A stretch of 64,000 nucleotides of DNA from Halobaculum saliterrae (lineage in GTDB: Archaea; Halobacteriota; Halobacteria; Halobacteriales; Haloferacaceae): positions 496,301 through 560,300 of the forward strand of contig NZ_WUUS01000001.1 in the NCBI RefSeq assembly GCF_009831625.1. The letters are read 5' to 3'. This document shows positions 15,498 through 62,290 of this stretch, in pieces. The position numbers were made by a program, and so were the translations under genes. The notes under the pieces were generated by a model. It was given only the letters and a program-made list of their open reading frames with translations, searched no databases and was not told the origin of the DNA. The stretch's first letter is position 1; every line of letters begins with the position of its first letter.

Positions 15498-16187
15498 TCA
15501 GTCCCGTCGAGCGATCACGGACTCGCCCGCACGAACCGCCTCTCCCCGGCTCACACGGACGTTCTCGGCGGTGTAGCCGGACGGGAGCACCACGTCGGCC
15601 CGCGAGCCGAACGCGATGTAGCCGATCCGTGCGCCCCGTGTGACCGGGTCTCCAGGCGAAACGTAGGGGGTTATCCGGCGGGCGAACCAGCCCGCGATGA
15701 GCGCGCCGTCGACGTGCCCGGCGTCGCCGTCCGGCTCGGCGTCAGCTCCGTCTTCCGTGGCGTCGCCCGCCCCGCCGGCGTCTTCCCGCAGCGTGTACTC
15801 GAAGCGCTCGTTGCGCTCGGACTCCTTGACGAACGCCGGCCGGTGGGCGGCGCCGCGGTGGTCCAGCCGCGTCACTTCCCCGTCGGCGGGCGCGCGACAG
15901 ACGTGCACGTCGAAGGGGCTCATGAACACGCCGACGCGGACGCGGTCGCCGTCCTCCCGGATCACCGAGACGTGTCCGTCGGCGGGGGCGAGGACCCCCT
16001 CGCCGGCGGGTTCGCGGTCGGGGTCGCGGTAGAAGTACGCCGAGAACGCCCCGACACCCAGCAGGAGCAGCCCCAGCGGCGGCACGAGGAACAGGAACGG
16101 GACCGCGAGCGCGAACGGGACGAACACGCGTCGCTCGCTTCCGGGGGCGAGATCCGGGATCGGGACGGCAGTCGGGATCGATATCAC
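15498..16187 (-). CDS. asd: archaetidylserine decarboxylase (PSD family)
   Basis: 229-residue membrane-associated pyruvoyl enzyme that decarboxylates archaetidylserine to archaetidylethanolamine. Motifs include FYRDPDREP, APADGHVSVI, FMSPFDVHVCRAPADG and the self-cleavage site IAFGSRADVVLP, where the Gly-Ser pair yields the pyruvoyl group. A hydrophobic N-terminal helix pair lies at about residues 24-48. A polar insert (about residues 127-155, rich in Asp/Gly/Ala) interrupts the usual spacing. The GTG start overlaps the stop of rfcC in a GTGA junction, so it is translationally coupled to that gene. The homologous enzyme is tied to archaeosortase-dependent lipid anchoring in haloarchaea. Confidence 0.9.
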   Translation of the reverse strand: MISIPTAVPIPDLAPGSERRVFVPFALAVPFLFLVPPLGLLLLGVGAFSAYFYRDPDREPAGEGVLAPADGHVSVIREDGDRVRVGVFMSPFDVHVCRAPADGEVTRLDHRGAAHRPAFVKESERNERFEYTLREDAGGAGDATEDGADAEPDGDAGHVDGALIAGWFARRITPYVSPGDPVTRGARIGYIAFGSRADVVLPSGYTAENVRVSRGEAVRAGESVIARRD

Positions 16188-23920: not shown

Positions 23921-23942
23921 ACCCCTTCGTTTCGACTGGAAC
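23921..23942 (-). promoter_or_regulatory. isolated ORB-like (Orc1-binding) motif
   Basis: The minus strand reads GTTCCAGTCGAAACGAAGGG followed by GT. This fits the archaeal origin recognition box pattern (TTCCA, then GAAAC, then a G-run) very well, and matches the motifs around orc1 at 52.3-56.4 kb. It lies in gene-free DNA between the 80-bp repeats and the 3' end of the threonine deaminase gene. No orc1 gene is near. Confidence 0.6.
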
Positions 23943-45885: not shown

Positions 45886-47098
45886 GGCGTCCGGGCCGGC
45901 CGAGCGGTCCGATCCGGCGGTTCGGGTGGAGGACCTCCGCGTCGAGTACGGGTCGACGACCGCGCTCGACGGCGTCGACGTGACCGTCGAGGAGGGCGAG
46001 TTCTTCACCCTCGTCGGCCCGTCGGGGTGCGGAAAGACGACCACGCTCCGGTGTCTCGCCGGCTTCGAGGAGCCGACCGCGGGCTCGATACACATCGCCG
46101 GCGAGTCGATGGCGGGCGTTCCACCCGAATCGAGGGGGATCGGCGTCGTGTTCCAGAGCTACGCGCTGTTCCCGCACATGAGCGTCGGCGAGAACGTCGC
46201 CTACGGCCTCCGCTTCTCGGGGCCGCCGGAGGGGACCACGAAACACGAGCGCGTCGAGGAGCTGCTCGAACTCGTGGACCTCCCGGGGTTCGCCGACCGC
46301 GACCCGGACACGCTCTCGGGCGGCCAACAGCAGCGAGTGGCGCTCGCGCGGGCGCTCGCGCCCGAGCCGCGGCTCCTCCTGCTCGACGAGCCGATGTCGG
46401 CGCTGGACGCACGCCTGCGCGAGCGCCTCCGGGTGCAGGTGCGGGAGATCCAGCGAGAACTGGGCATCACGACGGTGTACGTCACCCACGATCAGGAGGA
46501 GGCGCTCTCGGTCTCCGACCGCGTCGCCGTCGTGGACGGCGGCCGGATCGAGCAGGTCGGCCGGCCCCGCGAGCTGTACGACGCGCCGGCGACCCGGTTC
46601 GTCGCGGAGTTCCTCGGCGACAACAACGTGTTCGCTGGGTCGGTCGTCGCCGGGGGCGACCGCGTCCGCGACGCGGCGGCCGCCCGGGACGACGGCGGCG
46701 ACCCCCTGCGCCTCCGCGTCGACGGAGGCGGGACGCTCCCCCTCCCGAGCGACGTGGCGGAGGATGCCCGTGACGGCGACCGCCTCGTCGTCTGCGTGCG
46801 CCCCGAACGGATCCGGGTCCACGCTTCCGGCGACGGCGACCGCGAGGGCGAGAGAGCCGGTGATCGCGTCGGCGGCAACGGTGGGACGGGGAGGGGGACG
46901 GGGGCGGACCCGGATGGGGCGTTGCTGGCGACGACCGTCGAGAGCACCGAGTTCCTCGGCGACGCGACGCGACTCCACTGCGACTGGAACGGCGTCGCCG
47001 TGACCGTCCGAACCGACGGGAGCCGGTCCTTCGACGTCGGCGAACCCGTGACCCTCGGTGTCGACCGCGCGGACGTTCGGGTCGTCGAGCGCTCGTGA
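45869..47098 (+). CDS. thiQ: ABC transporter ATP-binding protein of the thiamine-type importer
   Basis: 409-residue ATPase. Walker A is VGPSGCGKTTTL, the Q loop is VVFQSYALFPHM, the signature is LSGGQQQRVALARAL, Walker B is LLLLDEPMSALD, and the H loop is VTHDQEEAL. Unlike classical ThiQ (about 230 residues) it has a long C-terminal TOBE-like regulatory part (from about 235), interrupted by a Gly/Asp/Arg low-complexity insert at about residues 320-345. This makes it closer to PotA/FbpC. GTG starts at 45869 or 45878 are both possible, and both overlap the thiP stop. Confidence 0.92.
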   Translation: MSSVGEASGPAERSDPAVRVEDLRVEYGSTTALDGVDVTVEEGEFFTLVGPSGCGKTTTLRCLAGFEEPTAGSIHIAGESMAGVPPESRGIGVVFQSYALFPHMSVGENVAYGLRFSGPPEGTTKHERVEELLELVDLPGFADRDPDTLSGGQQQRVALARALAPEPRLLLLDEPMSALDARLRERLRVQVREIQRELGITTVYVTHDQEEALSVSDRVAVVDGGRIEQVGRPRELYDAPATRFVAEFLGDNNVFAGSVVAGGDRVRDAAAARDDGGDPLRLRVDGGGTLPLPSDVAEDARDGDRLVVCVRPERIRVHASGDGDREGERAGDRVGGNGGTGRGTGADPDGALLATTVESTEFLGDATRLHCDWNGVAVTVRTDGSRSFDVGEPVTLGVDRADVRVVERS

Positions 47099-51078: not shown

Positions 51079-52671
51079 TCAGGCGAACTTCCGGACCGTC
51101 ATGTCGAGCGTGTCGAGATCGAGGATGGGGGCGTGAGCGACGTCGGGGTCGATGTTGACGGACTTCTGGAAGTCGGTCTGGGCCTGCCAGCACCCGGAGT
51201 TGACCGCGAGGACGTTGTGGTACTTCCCCCAGCCGAGCTTGTGGACGTGGCCGGTGTGGAACACGTCCGGCACCTCGTCGATGACGAGGTAGTCGCGCTC
51301 CTCGGGGGCGACGCGGGTCTTCCCGCCGAACTGCGGGGCGACGTGGCGCTTCTTGAGGAGCTGGTACATCGCCTTGTGGGGTTCGTCGTAGCTGGCCTTC
51401 TCCTCCGGCAGCTCGGCGATCACCTCGTCGAGGGAGACCCCGTGGTACATGAGGACGTTCACGCCCTCCACGTCGACCATCGCGGGGTTGCTCACGATCT
51501 GGGGGTCGTGCGCGCTCATGATCCCCCGGAGCTCCTCGTCGAACCCCGGCTGGGGCTCGGCGAGCCGGACGGCGTCGTGGTTCCCGGGGATCATGACGAT
51601 CTCCATGTCGCCCGGCACCTGCTTGAGGTGCTCGGAGAACGTCTCGTACTGCTCGTAGATGTCGATGATGTCGAGCTCCTCGTCCTGATTCGGGTAGACG
51701 CCGACGCCCTCGACCATGTCGCCCGCGATGAGCAGGTACTCGACGTGTTCGGCCTCCTCCGTGTGAAGCCAGTCGGCGAACCGACCCCAGGCGTCCGCGA
51801 GGAACTCCTGAGAGCCGACGTGCACGTCCGAGACGAGCGCCGCCTGCACGTGGCGGTCGGCGGTGTTCGGGCGGTGGGTGCGGGGTACGTCGGGGAAGTG
51901 GATCGCGTCGACGAAGACGATGCCCGCGTCGTCCGCGAGCGTTCCGGTGACGGCGATACACTCGTCCATGAGGAGTTCGTCCACCAGGTCCGCGATGTCG
52001 CGGTCCTTCATCACGAGACACGGGAACGTTCCGGTGGTGTCCTCCAGTTCGACCAGCCAGTGGCCCGACGCGGTCGACCGAATGTCGTTGACGAGGCCGA
52101 TGAGCTCCACGTCGGCGCCGCCCCCCATCGCCTCGATGGAGTCGGCAGGGCGGTGGTTGACGCGCCCCCGAAGCTGTCCGGAGAGGCGCTCGTATCGGTC
52201 GCGGAACACCCCGACGAACTCGTCGTATGCTCCCGTTCCGGTCGACGCGCCGGTCATGTCGTTCGCGACGACGGGCGCCTGTGGGGATCGGTCGACGACC
52301 GTGTTCCCCTCCGTTTCGTCCGGAACGGCTCCGGTTCCGTGTGGCGATCCACCCCCGGACACTCCAGTCGAAACGGAGGGGTCCGAATTGACGGCGTCGT
52401 TCGTCGGTTCCGACGACGCGGCGGCGGCCGACTCGGTCGAGCGGGCCGCGCCGTCGACCTGTTCGGGGTCCGGAACGGGCTCGGCGTCGAGCGCCTCCCG
52501 GACGTGGTCGACGGTGAGAACGAGTGCGTCCTCGGGCGCGGTCTCGATGGCCGCCTCGAGGGCGAGTTCCGGCGTCGACGACTCGGCGATGAGCGTGACG
52601 GCCTCCCGCTCGGCGTTGTACCCGCGGCGAGTGAGCGCCTGCACGACTCGGGAGGACGTCTCCAGCGGCAC
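51079..52671 (-). CDS. polD1: DNA polymerase D small subunit (DP1), exonuclease
   Basis: 530-residue small subunit of the archaeal replicative polymerase PolD, carrying the Mre11-like 3'-5' proofreading nuclease. The N-terminal domain begins VPLETSSRVVQALTRRGYN. A low-complexity Ser/Asp/Ala linker follows (about 85-150), then an OB fold (IRSTASGHWLVELEDTTGTF). The phosphoesterase domain has ALVSDVHVGSQEF, IAGDMVEGVG, IPGNHDAVR, MYHGVSL and FHTGHVHKLGW. The GTG start is chosen by family alignment and a TATA-like ATCCTTTT about 28 nt upstream. Two ORB-like motifs are encoded within the linker. The large subunit DP2 is not in the window. Confidence 0.95.
   Translation of the reverse strand: MPLETSSRVVQALTRRGYNAEREAVTLIAESSTPELALEAAIETAPEDALVLTVDHVREALDAEPVPDPEQVDGAARSTESAAAASSEPTNDAVNSDPSVSTGVSGGGSPHGTGAVPDETEGNTVVDRSPQAPVVANDMTGASTGTGAYDEFVGVFRDRYERLSGQLRGRVNHRPADSIEAMGGGADVELIGLVNDIRSTASGHWLVELEDTTGTFPCLVMKDRDIADLVDELLMDECIAVTGTLADDAGIVFVDAIHFPDVPRTHRPNTADRHVQAALVSDVHVGSQEFLADAWGRFADWLHTEEAEHVEYLLIAGDMVEGVGVYPNQDEELDIIDIYEQYETFSEHLKQVPGDMEIVMIPGNHDAVRLAEPQPGFDEELRGIMSAHDPQIVSNPAMVDVEGVNVLMYHGVSLDEVIAELPEEKASYDEPHKAMYQLLKKRHVAPQFGGKTRVAPEERDYLVIDEVPDVFHTGHVHKLGWGKYHNVLAVNSGCWQAQTDFQKSVNIDPDVAHAPILDLDTLDMTVRKFA
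52304..52384. promoter_or_regulatory. pair of inverted ORB-like motifs inside polD1
   Basis: At 52305-52326 the minus strand reads GTTCCGGACGAAACGGAGGG then G. At 52362-52384 the plus strand reads CTCCAGTCGAAACGGAGGGG then TCC. Both fit the archaeal origin recognition box pattern, and their G-runs point toward each other. They fall in the disordered linker of polD1 (coded as VPDETEGN and DPSVSTGV), about 4 kb from the AT-rich origin core. Confidence 0.6.
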
Positions 52672-52879
52672 GACACGAGGTCGGCCGGGCGCGGGCAAAA
52701 GGATAGCGGATGGACGCACGGCGACGACGTCGGCAGTTCGGCCCGCGATCGCGCCAGTGGGGAACGGATCCCGTATCAGGCGGCAGCCGTCGCCGTCCGG
52801 TCGTCAGGGCGTCGGTCGGCCACGCTTCGAGGGCGCGGTAACAGAAAGTTCAACACCGAGCGCCGGGTTCGAGTGAATA

Positions 52880-53852: not shown

Positions 53853-55682
53853 TCAGTTGTCGAAGCGGGCCTGAACGAACGGCTGGACGTCCTCGATGTC
53901 GCCGAGTCGGGAGTCCGAGAGCAGGACGGCCTCGGTTTCGTCGATCGGGACGGACAGGGAGATCTCCTTCGTCCGTCCGTAGCGACCCTTCGAGACGACG
54001 ACCGCGTTGACGATGCCGAGCATGTCGAGTTCGGAGATGAGGTCGGTGACGCGACGCTGCGTGAGCACGTCGGCGTCGATCTCCTCACAGAGCCGCTTGT
54101 AGATGTTGAACACCTCGCCGGTGTTGACGTTGTGAACGCCGTTCTGTTCGAGGAGAATGATGGAGAACAGGACGATCTTGCTCTGGGTCGGGAGCGTGCG
54201 AACCACCTCGACGACGCGATCCAGCTCGATCTTGTCCTGGGCCTGTCTGACGTGCGCCTCCTCCACGAGGTCGGCCTGCGAGCGTTCGGCGAGCTCGCCC
54301 GCGGTGCGCAGCAGGTCGAGCGCGCGGCGAGCATCCCCGTGCTCCTGGGCAGCGAAGGCGGCACACAGCGGGATCACGTCCTCGGTGAGGGCATCGGGCT
54401 TGAACGCGATGTCCGACCGGTGCTGGAGAATGTCCCGCAGCTGGTTCGCGTCGTACGGCGGGAAGACGATCTCCTCCTCGCCGAGGCTCGACTTGACGCG
54501 TGGGTCGAGGAAGTCGGTGAACTTCAGGTCGTTGGAGATCCCCATGATCGAGATCCGGGAGTTCTCCAGTTCGGAGTTCATCCGCGAGAGGTTGTACAGG
54601 GTGTCGTCGCCGCTCTTCTCGACGAGCTTGTCGATCTCGTCGAGCATGATGACGACGACGCGCTCGTGGTAGTCGACGGCGTCGAAGAACGTGGAGTAGA
54701 CCCGGTCGGTCGGCCAGCCGGTCATCGGTACCTCCTCCATCTCCTCGCGGTCCGATTCGAGGTCCGCGATACGATCGTCGACATCGGCGACGGAGCCGAA
54801 CTCGGTTCCCTCGAGCGCTCCCTCGTCGTCGGTGGCAGCCGAGCGGAGGTCGCGGAGGTCGTCGAGGCGGTCGCCGATCACCCGGTCGTTCTTCTCGATG
54901 AACTTGTTCGCGAGCTGTGCGAGCACGCGATACTGGGTGTCGGTCACCTCGCAGTTGATGTACTCGACCTCGCAGGGGACGTCGTACTTCTGGCTGGTCG
55001 ACTCGAGTTCCTGTGAGACGAACTTCGCCGAGGCGGTCTTTCCCGTCCCCGTCTTCCCGTAAATCAGGATGTTCGACGGCGTCTCCCCGCGCAGCGCGGA
55101 CACGAGGATCGTCGCCATCTTGTTGATCTGGTCCTTTCGGTGGGGGAGCTCGTGGGGGGTGTACGAGGGACGAAGCACCTCCTTGTTCTCGAAGATGGGC
55201 TCGCCGGAGAGGAGGTCGTCGAACAACCCGGTGCTGGCTTCGTCGTCCTCGTCGGCGAGCACCTCGTCGACGTCGAGGTCGACGTCCGTTCGCGATCGGG
55301 ATCCGGACCCGAAGTTGAACGACGTTCCACCCGCGCCGGCGTCAGTGTCGCCGCCGGGGTCTCGGTCAGCGTCGCCGCCGGGGCCTCGGTCAGCGTCGCC
55401 GCCGACGCGCCCGTCGGTATCGTCGTCACGGTCACCGCGTCCTCCCTCGTCGGTGTCAGCGGCGGTGGTTCCGGTGGAAACGGGGTCGGGTGCTGTTTCG
55501 GATCCGGGTCCGACTCCGAGATCGGGTGCCGAGTCAGAGCCGGTGCCGTCGCTCTCCGGATCGGACGACCGCCCCTCGCTTCGGGTGGAGTCGTCGTTCT
55601 CGTCGGAGTGCGCCGCGACATCCGACGGGTCGTCGGTTCCGTCGTCGTTCGAACTGTGTTCCGGCTCGTCGTCCCGTGTCAT
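53853..55682 (-). CDS. orc1: Orc1/Cdc6 replication initiator with long acidic N-terminal extension
   Basis: 609-residue origin-binding AAA+ ATPase, expected to bind ORB elements and load MCM at the adjacent origin. Conserved sequence begins at GLFDDLLSGEPIFENKEVLR (about residue 152). Walker A is IYGKTGTGKTAS (209-217), Walker B is VVIMLDEIDKL, and the C-terminal winged helix includes LTQRRVTDLISELDMLGIV. Residues 1-150 are Asp/Gly/Ser-rich with a GGDADR-type repeat, which most Orc1 proteins lack. The first ATG, MTRDDEPEHS, is chosen because codon use stays acidic and haloarchaeal. A GTG at 55262 (VLADEDDEAS) is an alternative start that would give 469 residues. Confidence 0.95.
   Translation of the reverse strand: MTRDDEPEHSSNDDGTDDPSDVAAHSDENDDSTRSEGRSSDPESDGTGSDSAPDLGVGPGSETAPDPVSTGTTAADTDEGGRGDRDDDTDGRVGGDADRGPGGDADRDPGGDTDAGAGGTSFNFGSGSRSRTDVDLDVDEVLADEDDEASTGLFDDLLSGEPIFENKEVLRPSYTPHELPHRKDQINKMATILVSALRGETPSNILIYGKTGTGKTASAKFVSQELESTSQKYDVPCEVEYINCEVTDTQYRVLAQLANKFIEKNDRVIGDRLDDLRDLRSAATDDEGALEGTEFGSVADVDDRIADLESDREEMEEVPMTGWPTDRVYSTFFDAVDYHERVVVIMLDEIDKLVEKSGDDTLYNLSRMNSELENSRISIMGISNDLKFTDFLDPRVKSSLGEEEIVFPPYDANQLRDILQHRSDIAFKPDALTEDVIPLCAAFAAQEHGDARRALDLLRTAGELAERSQADLVEEAHVRQAQDKIELDRVVEVVRTLPTQSKIVLFSIILLEQNGVHNVNTGEVFNIYKRLCEEIDADVLTQRRVTDLISELDMLGIVNAVVVSKGRYGRTKEISLSVPIDETEAVLLSDSRLGDIEDVQPFVQARFDN
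55468..55491 (+). promoter_or_regulatory. ORB-like motif within the 5' part of orc1
   Basis: The plus strand reads GGTTCCGGTGGAAACGGGGT followed by CGGG. It has the inverted TTCC/GGAA core and the G-run of an origin recognition box. It codes for DPVSTGT in the acidic N-terminal extension of Orc1. A weaker match lies at 55571-55590 on the minus strand. Confidence 0.5.
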
Positions 55683-55692
55683 TCGTTCGTTG

Positions 55693-55715
55693 TACCCCCT
55701 TGTTTCGACTGGAAC
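55693..55715 (-). promoter_or_regulatory. ORB-like motif just upstream of orc1
   Basis: The minus strand reads GTTCCAGTCGAAACAAGGGG then GTA, ending 11 nt before the orc1 ATG. Binding of Orc1 here would cover the orc1 promoter or leader, so autoregulation is plausible. That is inference. Confidence 0.65.
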
Positions 55716-56227
55716 ACGCACCGGGCACCCGCCGTATCACCGGTTCTCTCGGCGGATATCGGCTGTGTTGAGCCCGGATCGCCGATCGGGCGTGTCCAGA
55801 TGATGCAACCGAAATGGATGGACAGCCCGTTAAAAAACGTTACTGTTCGGTCGAGTCGACGTCGGACGTTCGGTGTCGAACGGCGTCGTTCGAGGGGTGA
55901 GATCGGTGTCCGGCGGGCGGGTATCGAGTACACGATCGATCTCGGGTCCGGATCCCGATCGCGAACGGACTCGAGCTGCCGGACGATCGGCCTGATCGAG
56001 AATGGCCAAGTAAGACCGATCCTACCGGAAGCGATCCAACACGGTGACGGCTCTACTCACTTTGGCGTTCACCTACTCAGCGCTCGACCGGAAACGCTCC
56101 GCGATCGGGGACGCGGATCTCGACGGTCCGAACGAGTCCGCGTTCGTAACCGGATTCGACTAGAAACGGTCCCGACGAACACAGGGAGGTATTCGGTTCC
56201 GTATCCCTGGTGAGGGCGGGTTCCGCG

Positions 56228-56444
56228 ACCCCCCCACCCCTTCGTTTCCGGTGGAGACGACAACGAGGAGAGGGTGGCCAAGGGCATCTCGATCACGGTG
56301 TCTTTATTACGAATAAACTCGAACAGTATCCGCACGACTAGCAAATATATTTTGTTTAGGGTGTGGTGGTATCTAGAAAACGCGCGTCGGACGTCCCCCT
56401 CTCCCCGATCCCGGAAGTTCCACCTGAAATGGAGGGGTGGGGGT
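56228..56444. other. predicted chromosomal replication origin core (oriC1 type)
   Basis: Two extended ORB motifs flank an AT-rich segment. At 56228-56258 the minus strand reads GTCTCCACCGGAAACGAAGG followed by GGTGGGGGGGT. At 56417-56444 the plus strand reads GTTCCACCTGAAATGGAGGG followed by GTGGGGGT. They are in opposite orientation, G-tails outward. Between them, 56301-56320 and 56340-56360 (TTTATTACGAATAAA and CAAATATATTTTGTTTA) are the most AT-rich DNA nearby, fitting a duplex-unwinding element. orc1 is on one side and oapABC on the other. From 55716 to 56227 I see no gene or strong motif. Confidence 0.85.
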
Positions 56445-58505: not shown

Positions 58506-58721
58506 ACACGGGCCCGACCGTCCCGTTCTACCCGAAACCGTTCCCGTTCGGTCCGGACGACTCGCCCGGTCCGACTCGGCCCCCGTCGATCTACTCGAAC
58601 CGACTCCTGTACTCGACTGGAACCCCTGTATTCGAACCGGACCCCTTCAGCCGAATCGAACCCCCACTCGAACCGCATCCTCCACTCGAACTGTTCCCTT
58701 ACACTTGAACCGCACCCTCCA

Positions 58722-58841
58722 CTCGAACTGCCTCCCTCCACTCGAACTGCCTCCCTCCACTCGAACTGCCTCCCTCCACTCGAACTGCCTCCCTCCACTC
58801 GAACTGCCTCCCTCCACTCGAACTGCCTCCCTCCACTCGAA
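58722..58841 (+). repeat. 19-bp tandem repeat array
   Basis: CTCGAACTGCCTCCCTCCA is repeated six times perfectly (58722-58835), with partial copies on both sides. From 58610 to 58721 the array degrades into variants around CTCGAACCG and ACTCGACTGGAACCCC. The gap 58506-58894 holds no gene. There are no spacers, so it is not CRISPR. Confidence 0.95.
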
Positions 58842-62128: not shown

Positions 62129-62220
62129 GTCCCAGACAGCGACCGCTCGAACTTAAATTCCGCTGCGCCCCCGACTCCGCCGGCCGTTCAGTCCTTGACC
62201 AGTCGAACCGTCCCGACGCT

Positions 62221-62290
62221 CAGAACTCGGATCGACACTCAGAACTCGGATCGACACTCAGAACTCGGATCGACACTCAGAACTCGGCTT
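62221..62290. repeat. 19-bp tandem repeat over the lysC stop codon
   Basis: CAGAACTCGGATCGACACT is repeated three times (62221-62277), with a partial fourth copy at 62278-62290. The last copy contains the final codons and stop of aspartate kinase (GAG TTC TGA on the minus strand), so the gene's 3' end has been copied downstream. Confidence 0.93.

Follow-up and report, generated by a model that had tools for sequence, protein, structure and literature searches.

The stretch of DNA analysed here, referred to as the window, covers 64,000 nucleotides of Halobaculum saliterrae (contig NZ_WUUS01000001.1, positions 496,301 to 560,300) and carries the genes around the replication origin oriC1 in the order dp1, signal-peptidase-like gene, orc1, oriC1, GTPase gene (here oapA), oapB and oapC (Table 1). 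The gene between dp1 and orc1 has no Pfam hit and presumably encodes a signal-peptidase-like protein, judging from synteny. A figure legend elsewhere gives the gene order gbp, cdc6, sec and polA (PMC4010727). The closest solved structures to the Orc1 protein of the window are 2qby and 2v1u, and solved DP1 chains align from residue 163 on, past a linker that is hypervariable in this protein. The true start of orc1 may lie downstream of position 55721, and an ORB (origin recognition box) lies at the 5' end of the gene; 51 of the 56 named loci that could be tested have a similar same-strand ORB close to this end of orc1, usually without an extended G-string, and the one in the window is a possible autoregulatory site. 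The same region contains a 38-nt inverted repeat (55284-55321 and 55933-55970; 89% complementary, 611 nt apart), with one arm in the N-terminal coding region of orc1 and the other in the oriC region. Two different tandem arrays with a period of 19 bp are found further on, one at 58592-58841 between oapC and a MATE-like gene (CCACTCGAACTGCCTCCCT), the other at 62214-62287 (consensus CGACACTCAGAACTCGGAT).

Table 1. Features at the dp1-orc1-oriC1 locus, in positions of the window.
Feature	Position	Strand	Basis or remark
dp1/polD1, small subunit of DNA polymerase D	51079..52719	minus	Pfam DNA_pol_E_B and Metallophos
Hypervariable DP1 linker containing the ORB pair	52270..52476 (limits approximate)	minus	Protein alignment
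ORB in dp1, sense strand of the gene	52306..52325	minus	TTCCGGACGAAACGGAGGGG; encodes PDETEG; matrix score 20.3
Spacer between the dp1 ORBs	52326..52361		36 bp, GC-rich; length near-constant and sequence weakly conserved in relatives
ORB in dp1, antisense to the gene	52362..52381	plus	CTCCAGTCGAAACGGAGGGG; opposite strand encodes DPSVSTG; matrix score 31.3
orc1/cdc6 initiator gene beside oriC1	53853..55721	minus	Cdc6_C, Cdc6_lid
ORB without extended G-string, 5' end of orc1	55695..55714	minus	Matrix score 34.2
oriC1 core ORB with extended G-string	56237..56256	minus	Matrix
AT-rich stretch between core ORBs, likely unwinding element	56300..56370 (by eye)		Sequence
oriC1 core ORB with extended G-string	56418..56437	plus	Matrix

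The preliminary description of this DNA had placed two inverted ORBs in the polD1 linker, 4 kb from the origin core, and both the sites and their position hold: the pair lies about 340-410 bp into the dp1 gene, and the closest oriC1 core ORB is about 3.9 kb away. For scoring, 78 ORBs from 26 loci, all in the orc1-oapA region and none in dp1, were made into a matrix with a maximum score of 39.3. In 100 dinucleotide-shuffled versions of the 64-kb window no site scored above 14.2, a value that both dp1 sites exceed; they also agree with the oriC1-class consensus TTCCA-GAAAC-GGGG, as captured by the oriC1-region matrix. The claim that both are near-perfect suits the plus-strand site (31.3 of 39.3) and is less apt for the minus-strand site (20.3), and the separation, given earlier as 35 bp, is 36 bp between the 20-mers or 34 bp between hits of a 22-bp model. 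The two sites face each other with their TTCCA ends and have their G-strings on the outside, which is the polarity of the oriC1 core pair at 56237(-)/56418(+). With at most two mismatches, the ORB pattern has 13 sites in the 3.78-Mb genome, 10 of which fall around oriC1 (C1:511950-571112). A promoter scan, limited to sigma-70 types, gave no match at the dp1 pair. Two other ORB-like matches in the window are likely coding coincidences and were rejected, namely 46119-46138 in the ABC ATPase motif PPESRGIG and 15650-15669 in the string ITPYVSPGDP of a phosphatidylserine-decarboxylase-like gene; both recur in congeners and are, we assume, family motifs.

The pair was present in all 11 Halobaculum genomes examined, always with a start-to-start spacing of 56 bp. 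In 80 named haloarchaeal dp1 loci, counting a site at a score of 15 or more, 53 have both sites, 15 the sense site only, 10 the antisense site only and 2 neither. In a sample of 146 genomes drawn evenly across the order, three had no dp1 match and one C-terminal fragment was dropped; the 142 dp1 regions left contain 71 divergent pairs with both sites at a score of at least 15 and 16 weak pairs with scores of at least 8, besides 37 cases of sites without a pair and 18 regions without any site. Although any spacing from 44 to 80 bp was allowed, the start-to-start distance in all 87 pairs is 56 bp (66 pairs), 53 bp (20) or 68 bp (1), and control matrices (one reversed, five column-shuffled) found no pair in the same 142-genome dp1 DNA. 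Since 53 and 56 bp lie about a quarter of a helical turn apart, strict helical phasing is unnecessary, and since only about half of the genomes have the full pair and 18 of 142 have no site, the element is dispensable in some lineages.

The location in dp1 was also recovered by a genome-wide search of the 146 genomes for the pattern CCCC..GTTTC, a gap of 40-70, and GAAAC..GGGG, which found one place each in 56 genomes, 53 of them within dp1 (total length 76 bp in 37 and 73 bp in 16); the reversed pattern had no place in the 146 genomes. The three places outside dp1 are one in G143 that is not ORB-like beyond the fixed letters, one at the 5' end of orc1 in G141, both genomes also having a pair in dp1, and one on a different contig in G060, whose dp1 contains a single site. 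Genomes G020 and G025 both have the dp1 pair, and both sites are found in several Haloarcula species (L138, L141 and L144). In G011, whose dp1 has no pair, a pair with a spacing of 54 bp and scores of 21.0 and 19.9 directly follows oapC, and this might be a relocated pair. Divergent ORB pairs also occur about 1.3-1.6 kb downstream of the oapB start in three named loci (L122, 110 bp; L135, 48 bp; L139, 203 bp), and several Haloferax loci have single minus-strand ORBs in the same region. No dp1 site was found in eight genomes of families f2, f9 and f15 (assemblies of 0.9-2.3 Mb), and no dp1 pair in the loci of 23 of 53 genomes outside the order, searched with a haloarchaeal matrix that may miss other ORB types. 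Taken together, these two absences suggest that the element arose within the haloarchaea. A single match downstream of dp1 is present in six outgroup genomes, in a gene with a conserved WDSPVEI stretch that we take to encode a TYW1-like radical SAM protein.

Two islands, DPSVSTG and PxETxG, stand out in the otherwise hypervariable DP1 linker and coincide with the two ORB sites, so that the conservation could in principle be that of two peptides whose codons resemble ORBs by chance. The reading frame of the sites is identical in 53 of 53 pairs and the peptides are recognisable between families, and 8 of the 10 antisense-only loci still have a loose P.E[TAI] string; a shared frame is, however, what vertical descent leads one to expect, and the SVST string is likewise missing in 13 of the 15 loci without the antisense site. 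The codons themselves speak against this explanation. In 50 loci with 56-bp spacing, counting the commonest residue only, and with the bias that these loci had been pre-scored as two-site, third-base fixation is 100% at P, V, T and G in the antisense site (D, 97%) and at V, P, E and K in the sense site (G, 98%; T, 85%). By contrast, codons at variable motif positions have a top third base in 61% and 50% (S) and 66% (V) of cases. For the invariant catalytic motif GNHDAVRLAEPQP, encoded by these dp1 genes too, the top third base reaches 86-100% at G, N, H and D and 38-70% at A, V, R, L, A, E, P, Q and P; for their STGTG string it reaches 44-62%.

A recoding test points in the same direction. Random synonymous recodings, drawn from dp1's own codon usage, match the observed score at p<0.001 per site in 33 of 33 tested two-site linkers. 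Across the 59 of 80 named linkers that were covered, the other 21 having no exact anchor string, this level was reached at 53 sense sites, at 50 antisense sites and at both in 46; for the window's own sites, the minus site gave p 0.00095 and the plus site 0 of 20,000 recodings. In 53 loci, 26 and 17 different distances separate the pair from the protein motifs on its two sides, while the inter-site spacing is 56 bp in 50 of these 53. The recoding test and the third-base fixation both indicate synonymous constraint on the DNA of the two sites, which renders a mere coding artefact exceedingly improbable. Conservation in most families sampled, rigid spacing and fixed synonymous positions strongly support an initiator-type pair with a non-coding role, and judged from sequence comparison the pair is neither a chance occurrence nor a protein motif. 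It is very probably an independently selected DNA element within the coding sequence of the flexible DP1 linker, inherited in most haloarchaeal families sampled.

Inverted ORB pairs normally mark an origin, as the preliminary description had pointed out, yet this expectation does not fit the dp1 pair. The haloarchaeal oriC1 core pair shares with it the ORB sequence, the divergent polarity and the outward G-strings, but the core ORBs lie about 180 bp or more apart around an AT-rich element and carry an extended G-string (PMC3528665, PMC3936714), whereas the dp1 sites are 56 or 53 bp apart, GC-rich, intragenic and without this string. Defined as five or more G among the six bases that follow GGGGT, the extended G-string is found in 119 of 124 core oriC1 ORBs, in 5 of 100 other ORBs of the oriC region and in 1 of 106 dp1 ORBs. 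The dp1 spacers have a mean AT content of 32% and a maximum of 59% (53 pairs), while the AT-richest 34-nt stretch between the core ORBs has a mean of 74% and a minimum of 65% (62 origins), a comparison of a spacer mean with the richest window of an origin that favours the contrast. Thus at least two inverted ORBs are present at dp1, as in an origin, but the AT-rich element is lacking and the extended G-string all but lacking, and on these grounds it differs from a standard origin and lacks the look of one that works. In Haloarcula hispanica the G-string was reported to be essential for oriC1 plasmid replication (PMC3936714). A dormant or accessory origin within dp1, which the two inverted ORBs taken alone would suggest, is very improbable.

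The pair might instead act on oriC1 from a distance. The preliminary description had considered help in looping the origin. In such a loop, Orc1 bound at dp1 would touch Orc1 bound at oriC1, 4 kb away, in the manner of a handcuff; most of the genomes compared do have dp1 a few kb from oriC1, and the dp1 pair has the polarity of the core pair. In 13 of the 142 genomes, however, more than 10 kb separate dp1 from oriC1 (distances read by eye): 8 of these have a pair, 4 a single site and 1 a weak pair, and none lacks sites, compared with 63 pairs, 15 weak pairs, 33 cases of sites without a pair and 18 without any site in the remaining 129, a group that includes 6 genomes with orc1 on another contig or not found. 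Both sites are kept at 193 kb in G123, the largest distance, at 130 kb in Halorarius litoreus, 80 kb in Halosegnis rubeus and 36 kb in Halobellus rufus, and at 12-19 kb in three Haladaptatus, the distances with a retained pair starting at 11 kb. No dp1 site was found in G018, where about 220 kb separate dp1 from oriC1 on the assumption of a circular contig, or in Halolamina pelagica, which has a rearranged gene order. As the pair is often kept at 11-193 kb, a short-range loop over 4 kb is not required, which weakens this idea and leaves it improbable.

A second way of acting on oriC1 would be that of a control site resembling datA, DARS or oriC2D, whose binding of Orc1 would reduce, inactivate or reset the pool on which the origin can draw; an origin-proximal copy would be duplicated soon after initiation and damp re-initiation, and the location in dp1 would be historical. 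The distribution of ORBs is in keeping with this. When the core and the dp1 pair are excluded, 34 of 44 ORBs with at most one mismatch lie within 50 kb of oriC1, against 1.2 expected, in the 20 genomes with complete hit lists and an oriC1 contig of more than 1.2 Mb, and outside Halobaculum the figure is 15 of 21; the corresponding Poisson value is only indicative because related genomes share sites by descent, and the tally includes sites such as 15650-15669. Some of these ORBs are likely coding coincidences, while others are intergenic, for example 23922-23941. This minus-strand site is the best ORB of the window (38.5 of 39.3); it lies about 32 kb from oriC1, directly beyond the 3' end of a threonine-dehydratase-like gene, and several congeners have similar ORBs about 30 kb from oriC1. 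Such clustering is easier to reconcile with a function at the origin than with one in dp1. The proximity of dp1 to oriC1 in most genomes compared, the ORB-rich negative control of oriC2 reported for Haloarcula hispanica (PMC3936714) and a rigid spacing that fits an Orc1-Orc1 interaction argue in the same sense, and the dp1 pair does consist of initiator boxes outside the origin, as a titration locus would. On the other side, two sites provide little titration, fixed spacing is unneeded for simple titration, and the intragenic rather than oriC-intergenic placement is left unexplained. The bound protein could also be other than Orc1, for instance a paralogous Orc/Cdc6, as haloarchaea have many orc/cdc6 genes (PMC3528665, PMC2841640) and Orc1-2 of Sulfolobus is a regulator (PMC9738581); this is unlikely, given that dp1 sites score up to 38.5 of 39.3, in a comparison with the oriC1-region matrix only, and that ORB sequence follows the cognate Orc family (PMC3528665).

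We tentatively favour a role in dp1 transcription, for the element is intragenic, seems usually to move with dp1, and has a symmetric, rigid layout, and most loci have a same-strand ORB close to the 5' end of orc1. It moreover sits in a transcribed gene despite free intergenic space in the oriC region. One Orc monomer binds each ORB with a defined polarity (review, PMC7776575). On dp1, two monomers of Orc1, the initiator of oriC1, would accordingly be placed 34-36 bp apart with their G-string (AAA+) sides outward and form a compact complex that does not fire. When occupied, the pair would hinder RNA polymerase within dp1, and the supply of the polymerase subunit would thereby track the abundance or state of Orc1, jointly with the ORB at the orc1 start. 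The pair may be a dual-coding binding module for two Orc1 molecules that restrains dp1 transcription through Orc1 occupancy, although we hold this reading with less than even confidence. Viewed more generally, and with the same reserve, it could be a dual-coding Orc1 switch, present in most haloarchaea and of fixed, non-firing geometry, that senses the level or nucleotide state of Orc1 and coordinates initiation with polymerase supply. The datA/DARS alternative, a sink or reset site for Orc1, comes close in likelihood, in view of the ORBs clustered around oriC1. Control of polD1 expression and titration of Orc1 were the two roles that the preliminary description had offered besides the loop.

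In Escherichia coli, datA and DARS are conserved groups of initiator boxes outside the origin, arranged in a set geometry, which act through DnaA and have a shown effect. The dp1 pair likewise comprises non-origin initiator boxes in a set geometry, but its candidate ligand is Orc1 rather than DnaA, it lies inside a replication gene, unlike datA and DARS, and its effect is only predicted. Intragenic operators and dual-use codons, in which a protein-binding site within coding sequence imposes synonymous constraint, offer a further parallel, since the dp1 pair is a candidate site of this type under the same constraint; we know of no intragenic operator that involves an archaeal initiator and a polymerase gene. 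Among archaeal systems, oriC2D of Haloarcula hispanica resembles the dp1 pair in having origin-near ORBs outside the origin itself, for which initiator binding has been proposed, and datA is mentioned in the same paper (PMC3936714). It differs in that it lies downstream of cdc6E, concerns Cdc6E and oriC2 and contains many ORBs (PMC3936714), whereas the dp1 pair has two sites at rigid spacing beside oriC1, with a predicted effect. ORBs in dp1 or polD1 are unmentioned in the accessible portions of PMC3528665, PMC3936714, PMC4010727, PMC4595724, PMC2841640, PMC7776575 and PMC3119063, and literature searches, with supplementary files and subscription papers outside their scope, returned no report of the pair. 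Two of these papers are surveys that make their origin predictions in intergenic regions beside orc/cdc6 genes, so that a pair within dp1 would be missed (PMC3528665, PMC4595724).

Little is known of what limits initiation at oriC1 in archaea, and the haloarchaeal negative control described so far, as far as the accessible text goes, concerns oriC2 (PMC3936714). The conservation of the pair at a near-fixed distance in many families suggests an unrecognised control point of DNA replication, and what pass for two conserved "peptides" in a disordered linker of a protein can evidently be DNA sites in disguise. The pair is a defined target that can be destroyed by synonymous changes with the proteins unaltered, for example in Haloarcula, where genetics exists, and feedback between the initiator and the replication machinery in archaea thereby becomes directly testable. 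If the proposed Orc1 switch is correct, archaea would have an equivalent of datA/DARS or of DnaA autoregulation that is placed within a protein-coding linker.
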